Below the pieces are notes generated by a model. It was not told the origin of the DNA. It did not search any database and was given only the letters and a program-made list of their open reading frames with translations. A stretch of DNA of 38,296 nucleotides. Source: Psychrobium sp. (GTDB lineage Bacteria > Pseudomonadota > Gammaproteobacteria > Enterobacterales > Psychrobiaceae). The translations under genes and the position numbers were made by a program. Shown here in pieces: positions 14,086 to 37,396 of the stretch. The stretch is taken from assembly GCA_013214905.1 (NCBI GenBank), contig JABSRV010000013.1, positions 1 through 38,296 on the forward strand. Direction: 5' to 3'. Within the stretch, counting starts at the first letter, position 1. Each line of letters opens with the position of its first letter.

Positions 14086-14247
14086 AAATCTTCATTAAAT
14101 TTGCCGAGTAAGTTGTGATTGCTAACTCTGAAACTTTTCCCTACACTCTATGCCATTCTCCTTTTAAACGATTTACGGATCGTTTTTCAACCAATTGTAT
14201 TAATGAAGTGACCAATTTTGTAGTGAGGATAAACGGATTAGAGCACA

Positions 14248-14338
14248 TGTTCATAGTTCCAGACTGAACATAAGCACCCACATCCTTGTGGGCGAAGCAT
14301 TTATTTCTTATTGTAGTTATTCTACAAAGAAAATAAAT
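14248..14338. repeat. Cluster of three stem-loops in the intergenic region upstream of rdgC
   Basis: TGTTCA...TGAACA (14248-14270), CCCACA-tcct-TGTGGG (14277-14292), ATTTATTTCTTATTGTAG-ttatt-CTACAAAGAAAATAAAT (about 14299-14338). Confidence 0.6.
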
Positions 14339-14358
14339 AACGCCGCTATTATTCGTTT

Positions 14359-14517
14359 ATACCAATTCCATTAATTATGTGATCTTGTTGTGCGACGAAA
14401 AAATCAGCTAGAACAAGGCGCTCGATTGACTAATAGCTGGCTATTAGGATAGAGAGCAACGATGTAATAGTTAATTTTAACAAGCACAAGTTATCAGATC
14501 ATTACTGGAATTAGTAT
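14359..14517. mobile_element. 159-bp MITE-like palindromic element, copy A
   Basis: Ends ataccaattcc...ggaattagtat; core 'aggcgctcgattgactaatagctggctattaggatagagagcaacgatgta' is shared without gaps with copy B at 26610-26768. Confidence 0.75.
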
Positions 14518-14577
14518 TTCACCATGAAAAATGATCAAAGCGTTTGTGCCATTGGTATTACTTATAAAGTGACTATT

Positions 14578-15495
14578 ATGTGGTTTAAAAATTTAATTGT
14601 TTATCGTTTATCCAAGCCTATTGACCTAACACCCGATCAACTTGAAACTCGTTTAGAAGAGTTTTCATTTCATCCCTGTACCAGCCAAGAGCAAAGCAAG
14701 TTTGGCTGGGGCAAGCCAATGGGTAAACACGGCGACTCATTAATTCATGTCACCGACGGTAATATCTTATTGTGTGCGCGCAAAGAAGATAAGATGCTAC
14801 CTGCCTCTGTGATAAAAGAAGCACTGGACGAGAAAGTTGAAAAAATAGAACAAGCGACGTCACGCCCGGTTAAGAAAAAAGAAAAAGACGCATTAAAAGA
14901 AGAAATTATTCATACGTTGTTGCCGCGTGCATTTTCTAGAATGGGTTCAACTTTCGCCTACATCTCGCCAAAGATGAACTTAATCATTGTTAATGCATCA
15001 AGCCATAACAAAGCTGAAGATTTACTCGCTTTATTACGTAAATCAATAGGTTCATTAGCGGTGCTACCTGTGCAAAGTAAATCACCTATCGATCAAACCA
15101 TGACTCAGTGGTTAACCGATGATGTATCGACCCACCCTTTTAGTCTGTTAGAAGAAGCTGAGCTGAAAAGCCCATTAGAAAATGGCGCGATAATTCGTTG
15201 TAAGAATCAAGATTTGATATGCAACGAGCTAAAAGCCCATATTGAAAACGGCATGTTTGCGGTTAAAGTGGCGATGCAATATGGCGAGTCCATGAGCTTT
15301 GTGCTTAGTGAAGATTTGACCATTAAACGCGTTAAGTTCACTGACGTAGTGACCGAGCAGCAAGAAGATCAAGATAAGGATGATAGAGCGGCCTGTTTCG
15401 ATGCGGATTTTTCTATTATGGCGGGAGAATTTGAAACCTTTATCCCTGCATTACTTGAATTACTTGGCGGTGAAGAAGTCGCTAACGCTGAATAA
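14578..15495 (+). CDS. rdgC: Recombination-associated protein RdgC
   Basis: 'MWFKNLIVYRLSKPIDL', 'FGWGKPMGKHGDSLIH', 'LLCARKEDKMLPASVIKEAL', 'EKDALKEEIIHTLLPRAFSR'; internal ATG chosen by similarity to the conserved N-terminus. Confidence 0.95.
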   Translation: MWFKNLIVYRLSKPIDLTPDQLETRLEEFSFHPCTSQEQSKFGWGKPMGKHGDSLIHVTDGNILLCARKEDKMLPASVIKEALDEKVEKIEQATSRPVKKKEKDALKEEIIHTLLPRAFSRMGSTFAYISPKMNLIIVNASSHNKAEDLLALLRKSIGSLAVLPVQSKSPIDQTMTQWLTDDVSTHPFSLLEEAELKSPLENGAIIRCKNQDLICNELKAHIENGMFAVKVAMQYGESMSFVLSEDLTIKRVKFTDVVTEQQEDQDKDDRAACFDADFSIMAGEFETFIPALLELLGGEEVANAE

Positions 15496-25257: not shown

Positions 25258-26173
25258 GTAAATCTCCTGGCATGCGACTGCTTGCCTTTTCTTGTTCAAA
25301 TAGAGCCAACATCCATTGTCTAAACGCTTTAATCTTACCCAACTCACTTTGGCTTTCTTCAGACACGATATAATAAGCGTCTTTGCTCATTAAAAACTCA
25401 TCGAAAGGACATACTAATCGTCCTGCTTCTATTTCAGGGCGTGCAAATACGCTATAACCTAACGCAACACCTTGCCCATAAATGGCGGCTTGCATCACCA
25501 ATGATGACAAACTAAAAATAGGGCCGTGATTGACATTAAGTGAGACAACGCCAGTTTGTCGACACCAGTTTTTCCAGTCTTTGCGCGACAGATCATGTAG
25601 CAGAGTATGTTTGGCTAAATCTGACGGTTTATTTAACGGTTTATCTCCTGTCAATAAACTTGGTGAGCAAACGGGAATTAAATATTCATCGCGTAATTTC
25701 TCAGCGTCAATACCAGGCCAAAGCCCCCGCCCATAATATATAGCAATATCGACATCGTCGTTCAGAAATCCCTCATCAAGATCGATGGCTTTAATGCGCA
25801 CATCAATCTCAGGATGCAATTCACTAAACTGGGCCAAGCGTGGCACTAGCCACTGAATAGCAAAACTGGGCTGCGACGCGACTGTTAATGTGCCACTAGC
25901 AGTTCTTGACAATAGTTTTTCTGTGGCTTGAGACAAGGAACTAAAGATATCTTTTATATCTAAGAAATAACTTTGTCCTTCTTCGGTCAACAGCAAGGTT
26001 CGATTTTTACGGCGAAACATTTTCATCGACAAATTTTCTTCAAGTGCCTTAATTTGATGGCTTACTGCAGCCTGCGTCACAAATAACTCTTCCGCAGCTT
26101 TGGTAAAACTTAAATGACGTGCTGCAGCTTCAAAAGCTTTTAATGCATTTAATGGAGGTAATCGTCTCGACAT
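25247..26173 (-). CDS. gcvA: LysR-family transcriptional regulator GcvA
   Basis: 'MSRRLPPLNALKAFEAAARHLSFTKAAEELFVTQAAVSHQIKALEE'; synteny gcvA-ygdD-rlmM. Confidence 0.93.
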   Translation of the reverse strand: MSRRLPPLNALKAFEAAARHLSFTKAAEELFVTQAAVSHQIKALEENLSMKMFRRKNRTLLLTEEGQSYFLDIKDIFSSLSQATEKLLSRTASGTLTVASQPSFAIQWLVPRLAQFSELHPEIDVRIKAIDLDEGFLNDDVDIAIYYGRGLWPGIDAEKLRDEYLIPVCSPSLLTGDKPLNKPSDLAKHTLLHDLSRKDWKNWCRQTGVVSLNVNHGPIFSLSSLVMQAAIYGQGVALGYSVFARPEIEAGRLVCPFDEFLMSKDAYYIVSEESQSELGKIKAFRQWMLALFEQEKASSRMPGDLRET

Positions 26174-26328
26174 ACCCGTCCCTATTAATTATTAGTTTTT
26201 CTAATGCGAAATATTACATTTTATCGTTTGTTGAAGCAACTTTAATTGACTACATTATCACCACGTTAGCAACGGTGCTAACCGAAATTAATACCATAAA
26301 CTTTAAACATCAACTCAAAGGAACCATC

Positions 26329-26610
26329 ATGAACACCCTAATCAAAGCCACTTTCGTTATCGCCAGCATCGCAATTTCGTTTGCAAGCAACGCAGCGATC
26401 GATAGTGAGATGCAGTTAAATTCAGCTCTTACGGAACAAGAAGTTGTTAGCATGTTAGGTGATGATATGAAGATGAATAAAATTGAACTGAAAAAAAACA
26501 TCAGCTTTAAAGCATCGAAACCTCTATCACCAAAAACAGAAAATTTTGGTTTGGTAACAGTGCGCACGATCAATACCCCATCAATGATCATGACCGTCAG
26601 CAAACGCTAA
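26329..26610 (+). CDS. Small secreted protein of unknown function (93 aa)
   Basis: RBS-like 'aaagga' before ATG at 26329; signal peptide MNTLIKATFVIASIAISFASNAA; no recognised domain. Confidence 0.6.
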   Translation: MNTLIKATFVIASIAISFASNAAIDSEMQLNSALTEQEVVSMLGDDMKMNKIELKKNISFKASKPLSPKTENFGLVTVRTINTPSMIMTVSKR

Positions 26611-26768
26611 TACCAATCCTCGTTGAAGAGTGATCTTGTTATGTGTAGGTAAAGCTGGTGAAGACTAGGCGCTCGATTGACCAATAGCTGGCTATTGGGA
26701 TTGAGAGCAACGACGTATTCAGCTGCTTTAACCAGCATAAGTGGGCAGTCTTTAATGTGGATTGGTAT
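26610..26768. mobile_element. 159-bp MITE-like palindromic element, copy B
   Basis: Ends ataccaatcc...ggattggtat (10-bp perfect TIR); core shared with copy A at 14359-14517. Confidence 0.8.
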
Positions 26769-37128: not shown

Positions 37129-37396
37129 TATACCCAAGTTACTTGAAAATGCGAGTTTCAGAGCTCGGGTAGGATGCCAGAACAAGGCATGACTTGTAAG
37201 CAATGGTTATTCCCTTACTTAGAGTCATAACGCCGTGCTGGCTTTCTACCCGAACTCCCGCTGAGAAAGGCGATAAGCGACCAACTACGGCGTTATAAAA
37301 CCTTGATGTAGAGTGACTAGAACGGCGGTCTTATGCCTTGTATTTGGCACGCTTCTCGACTTGCTGAGTTCTGCATTTCCAGGTAGCTTGGGTATA
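37129..37396. mobile_element. About 268-bp MITE-like long imperfect palindrome between ispE and prs
   Basis: Left end tatacccaagttacttgaaaatgc; reverse complement of right end tatacccaagctacctggaaatgc (21/24 identical). Internal arms ataacgccgt...acggcgttat. Confidence 0.75.

Follow-up and report, generated by a model that had tools for sequence, protein, structure and literature searches.

Bacterial MITEs are commonly viewed as DNA parasites, with palindromes derived from transposon ends. The described systems closest to the repeats studied here are ERIC (IRU, RU-1), RUP, and Correia/NEMIS. In Yersinia, ERIC copies at the 3' ends of genes are co-transcribed and, when inserted in one of the two orientations, make an RNase E site accessible (PMC2229807, PMC10969869). 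RUP of Streptococcus pneumoniae, a short palindromic repeat, is thought to be moved by IS630-Spn1 via matching ends (PMC2229807), and Correia/NEMIS of Neisseria is a MITE with a transcript hairpin processed by RNase (PMC2229807, PMC10969869).

The window (the whole analysed stretch of 38,296 bp from Psychrobium sp.) contains two copies, A and B, of an element that is like ERIC in being intergenic, about 130-160 bp long and present in many copies, in its TA-type ends, and in its predicted folding into one long stem-loop. The initial annotation had described two 159-bp segments, 14359-14517 and 26610-26768; these do align without gaps, with 107 of 159 positions identical, and the core common to both was quoted correctly. 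The mobile unit itself, however, comprises 157 bp, the flanking bases being part of a TNA target duplication. The features of both copies are as follows, with bit scores for covariance model R1, which is based on 75 non-redundant copies, and for model R2, based on copies with differing termini:

14360..14516, + strand: copy A, 157-bp MITE TACCAATTCC...GGAATTAGTA
14357..14359, no strand: left target-site duplication of copy A, TTA (right counterpart TTT, 14517-14519, one change)
14388..14489, + strand: conserved predicted RNA fold of copy A (R1 108.7 bits; R2 84.3 bits)
14430..14447, + strand: apical hairpin of copy A, CTAATAG-CTGG-CTATTAG, with the covarying pair T14431-A14446
14189..14560, + strand: older sister-family (family b) MITE hosting copy A at TTA, also with a hairpin insert of ~49 bp from 14246
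26611..26767, + strand: copy B, 157-bp MITE TACCAATCCT...TGGATTGGTA, with subfamily B ends
26608..26610, + strand: TAA, both the stop codon that ends the upstream ORF (26119-26610) and the left target duplication of copy B
26639..26740, + strand: conserved predicted RNA fold of copy B (R1 104.1 bits; R2 84.1 bits)
26681..26698, + strand: apical hairpin of copy B, CCAATAG-CTGG-CTATTGG, with the covarying pair C26682-G26697

The insert of ~49 bp within the family-b element (CATGTTCATAGTTCCAGACTGAACATAAGCACCCACATCCTTGTGGGCG, window 14246-14295), to which similar ones exist in Colwellia copies (L104, L186), looks like a REP-type nested repeat. Immediately downstream of copy A, rdgC is situated (window 14578-15495; NF001462, 424 bits) with its likely start at 14578, 61 bp past copy A, and copy A may lie in the 5' leader of this gene.

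Concerning mobility, the element exhibits the features of bacterial MITEs: It is short and non-coding with terminal inverted repeats (157 bp, TACCAAT...ATTGGTA), it is flanked by a 3-bp TNA target-site duplication, with an empty site for copy A, and it occurs in many dispersed intergenic copies (94 model matches; 157 of the 158 copies examined are intergenic). The middle base of TNA is identical on both flanks in 36 of 47 copies, compared to 17 expected (p=3e-8), which indicates that insertion duplicates TNA. Removal of copy A together with one target copy restores a sister-family sequence, ATTCGTTTA joined to (C/G)ACCA, and the site is empty elsewhere. In IS630 elements of the genus, about 1.1 kb in length, both ends match the respective MITE ends around a two-frame transposase (left end TACCAAT..TGATCT, right end TACCAAT..TGATCA/TGACCA), with distinct left and right motifs as in the MITE; one such element (L063) is present in the own genome of copies A and B. 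The transposases of the genus belong to IS630 according to NCBIfam (NF033545, E=4.7e-45) and carry Pfam DDE_3. These insertion sequences and the MITE have about 28 terminal bp per end in common, whereas the insertion sequences possess the transposase and lack the conserved core, and the MITE exhibits the reverse. While the target duplication of IS630 is the dinucleotide TA, the MITEs duplicate the 3-bp TNA, as do several IS copies, such that their ends are to be regarded as IS630-related with a variant target. Judging from the matching ends, copies A and B are very probably MITEs mobilised in trans by IS630. RUP likewise is a short palindrome with IS630-type ends, but it differs by its length of 107 bp, its TA target, and the lack of a reported function or structural signature, whereas copies A and B show TNA and an interior conserved in its fold. 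In two of the IS630 elements (L063 and L065; G000:C90 and G004:C223), the transposase is encoded in two frames overlapping at an A-rich stretch, a split that resembles programmed frameshifting, and their duplication is frequently TNA instead of TA.

With copy A as query, BLAST gives 41 hits at E<1e-12 within the own 3.9-Mb genome, and R1 yields about 50 strong matches there, with the above 94 at E<=0.01; the likeness of copies A and B is therefore no chance resemblance. BLAST with copy A also found matches in nine of the nine congeners searched, R1 matched in 104 of 395 genomes within the order, and the exact core is found, among named genomes, mostly in Colwellia and furthermore in Psychrobiaceae, Psychromonas, Pseudoalteromonas, and Alteromonadaceae. 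The element is absent from the plasmids and from the phages searched, and its absence from plasmids means that there is no sign of plasmid spread. In Rfam, neither the copies nor the core match any family at the gathering score; sub-threshold matches, also those at permissive thresholds (MicC with 36 bits, SNORD104, MIR7996), were rejected as chance. In the literature searched on MITEs of Colwellia, Shewanella, and Pseudoalteromonas, none with such a structure was found, and some members may have been named earlier. A longer variant carries an extra hairpin of ~48 bp (TTCGACATGGATGTCGA...GGAGCACGTTGCC) in the left half of the core (L025, L056, L227, L228, L230, L231); it is found in the own genome and in congeners, and recurs in elements with differing ends. 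Another genome of the order (G099, family f12) contains near-identical copies of a sister element by the dozen, and many lie at contig ends, which suggests that the amplification is very recent and fragments the assembly.

Regarding structure, the initial annotation had pointed to one compensatory change, in which T14431-A14446 of copy A is replaced by C26682-G26697 in copy B, and had noted that this single event is what structural selection would yield. The pair is real, and its interpretation is supported by the family-wide alignment of 75 non-redundant copies (A3), in which the pair is CG in 46 copies, UG in 14, UA in 13, and unpaired in 2. Strong covariation is found in this stem and in 22 other pairs, at a level that none of 500 shuffles reaches. 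Two-sided changes occur in 23 of 31 pairs; 91.6% of the cells are paired, with the qualification that the selection of Colwellia copies by core pattern and of remote ones by covariance model inflates core conservation and pairing there. The covariation score of A3 is 0.388, compared to 0.178 after shuffling (exceeded in 0 of 500) and 0.055-0.108 in slid registers. The central hairpin exists as described, but folding extends over the whole element from end to end and is not confined to the centre; of the 7 bp originally assigned to the apical stem, 6 are conserved, whereas the outermost C-G is no feature of the family (in class 1, C-G 21 and G.G 17). The conserved fold is predicted as a single long hairpin, in which two conserved internal loops (AAGGC/AACG and GAUUGA/GGAUUGA) lie beneath a 6-bp apical stem. 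Its unpaired columns (AGGC, GATTGA, GGATTGA, and AACG) are conserved like the stems; in the BLAST-selected set, conservation of loop columns amounts to 91-100%, the exceptions being the position that varies ahead of the apical stem and one flanking A (79%). The internal loop GAUUGA/GAUUGA could accommodate two tandem G.A pairs enclosing two U.U pairs, an arrangement that is common and stable in RNA.

Complementary arms might also be expected in an ordinary MITE without RNA function, be it through hairpin correction during replication (quasi-palindrome template switching) or through a common origin from transposon ends. Palindromes are usual in MITEs, the ends do match those of IS630, and most copies are merely DNA inserted between genes; yet such correction would also remove the internal loops, whose columns rank among the best conserved, and the covariation reaches far inside the transposon ends. 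Furthermore, hairpin correction is symmetric with respect to the strands, and palindrome upkeep at the DNA level predicts equal frequencies of G.U and A.C mismatches, whereas G.U exceeds A.C: The BLAST-selected set contains 129 GU (188 expected) versus 41 AC (99 expected), and the 75 copies of A3 contain 144 GU versus 31 AC, with a ratio of 2.5 (95% 2.0-3.6) between their observed/expected values. We therefore consider an explanation without RNA function unlikely. The tolerance of G.U well above A.C on the + strand indicates selection on this strand as RNA (or single-stranded DNA), beyond a DNA palindrome. In line with this, 83 of 88 copies fold better as + RNA than as - RNA, by a median of 6.2 kcal/mol, although the 88 copies are not independent and the asymmetry in fold energy partly stems from the common ancestry of the core. 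Sister families with other apical domains exhibit a weaker strand bias (12 of 18, p=0.05).

As G.T is also stabler than A.C in DNA hairpins, the strand asymmetry cannot separate RNA from a + strand folding as single-stranded DNA, with a hairpin that serves transposition or replication. Transposases of the IS630 and IS5 types are, however, DDE enzymes working on double-stranded ends, no single-stranded DNA step is indicated by the analysis, and IS630 copies in the same genomes exist without the core; such a use of the hairpin appears quite improbable. That selection acts on the fold of the + strand is, on the other hand, well supported by the comparison of copies and probable in our view. Comparison of the copies shows the RNA fold, and we infer transcription and an effect on the mRNA. 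Together with the identity as an IS630-type MITE, the folding strand is new beyond the initial annotation.

The core is not restricted to elements with TACCAAT ends. Within the order, further families yield weak R1 matches, which have the arms in common (AGGAAAAAT..CAAGGC / AACGC..ATTTTAACC) and differ in the apical part. A search at the class level found the core CAAGGCG..AATAGC/GCTATT..CAACG with the ends GGAACCTCTGATT...GATCAGAGGTTCC and 4-bp YTAR-like flanks, and it is also present in elements with TATACCC ends (L078, L310). The ends GGAACCTCTGATT...GATCAGAGGTTCC (GGAA(C/G)CTCTGA) presumably resemble those typical of IS5-type transposons; a search with PF01609 for an IS5-type partner found transposases, none of which could be shown to have GGAA(C/G)CTCTGA ends on both sides. 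In a set of 30 copies with differing termini, the covariation score is 0.585, compared to 0.171 after shuffling, with two-sided changes in 29 of 34 pairs and 77 GU versus 7 AC, numbers inflated by the selection of remote copies with a model that scores pairing. Independent support for the core beyond the family comes from the coherent ends, which are outside the model, and from the repeated copies per genome. Model R2 has matches in 75 of the 399 genomes that were sampled from the whole phylum, other classes included. We see about an even chance that a single RNA core without an Rfam name was spread over Pseudomonadota on MITEs of three or more unrelated end types, i.e., IS630-type TACCAAT with TNA, ERIC-type TATACCC, and IS5-type GGAA(C/G)CTCTGA with YTAR-like flanks. 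In the window, a 268-bp palindrome with ERIC-type ends (TATACCCAAG...CTTGGGTATA) is situated at 37129-37396, downstream of an ispE-like gene; it contains two opposed R2 matches (37158-37260 on the + strand, 29 bits; 37264-37365 on the - strand, 26 bits) and folds at -110.5 kcal/mol.

Concerning ERIC itself, copies A and B correspond to it in the end-to-end stem-loop predicted in transcript orientation, whereas the TATACCC ends and the central sequence of ERIC are lacking; ERIC possesses another apical domain, while copies A and B possess TACCAAT ends and the TNA duplication. Class 3, with the same core and the ERIC-like ends TATACCCGT...ACGGGTATA, aligns globally to the published ERIC of 127 bp (PMC2759123) better than 300 of 300 shuffles do. 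The folding energy of ERIC is -61.8 in the same orientation versus -45.2, a strand bias as in the present family. Copies A and B were rejected as members of ERIC, given a local alignment score not above that of shuffles and the wrong ends, and ERIC of E. coli was found by neither R1 nor R2. The family is possibly a distant relative of ERIC, presumably behaving like it without being classed as ERIC.

Concerning genomic placement, all but one of the 158 copies are intergenic, and 10 coincide precisely with a stop codon; as TAA and TGA are among the TNA trinucleotides, an insertion there can spare the gene. The upstream gene lies in sense in 95 cases versus 62 (p=0.010), a modest bias obtained with a crude ORF caller. 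In the favoured account, IS630-family transposases very probably recognise the MITE ends in trans, and insertion at TNA duplicates 3 bp, such that copies can land harmlessly on stop codons. Transcripts reading through in the + sense, mostly those of the upstream gene, would then fold into one long hairpin, which may work in cis as a binding or processing site on the mRNA and may alter its 3'-end processing or stability, as published for Yersinia ERIC, the precedent on which this mechanism is based (PMC2229807, PMC10969869). Correia/NEMIS resembles what is proposed here as a MITE forming a transcript hairpin; it differs in its ends and its host, and RNase processing is a feature of Correia/NEMIS. 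Alternatively, the element might yield a trans-acting small RNA, or act as terminator or attenuator, instead of influencing stability in cis. The stable isolated hairpin would fit this, as would the 41 copies in convergent versus 29 in divergent spaces, but this difference is not significant (p=0.19), and in the alignments the hairpin is not followed by a T-tract, the ends being TACCAAT/ATTGGTA; we regard this alternative as rather improbable. The account as a whole, an IS630-mobilised MITE whose transcript would fold into a cis-acting, ERIC-like mRNA hairpin, is slightly favoured by us, and its ERIC-like effect on the mRNA, including putative recognition by a protein or RNase, is suggested tentatively by analogy.

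The element can thus be characterised as an apparent IS630-type MITE, ERIC-like in its presumed behaviour, whose notable traits are the strong strand-specific covariation expected of RNA and a core common to MITEs with unrelated ends. Through it, a repeat common in marine bacteria is linked to an identified family of transposases, a connection seldom made for bacterial MITEs (PMC2229807), and the covariance model offered here is able to find the whole group of elements. The interior of this MITE appears to evolve as RNA, with compensatory pairs, wobble on one strand, and kept loops across hosts and types of ends. If the spread of one core by MITEs with unrelated ends holds true, the RNA module, and not the transposase, would be the common denominator and the selected part of these MITEs. 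The question of a role of ERIC-like repeats at the RNA level thereby becomes directly testable in culturable Colwellia.
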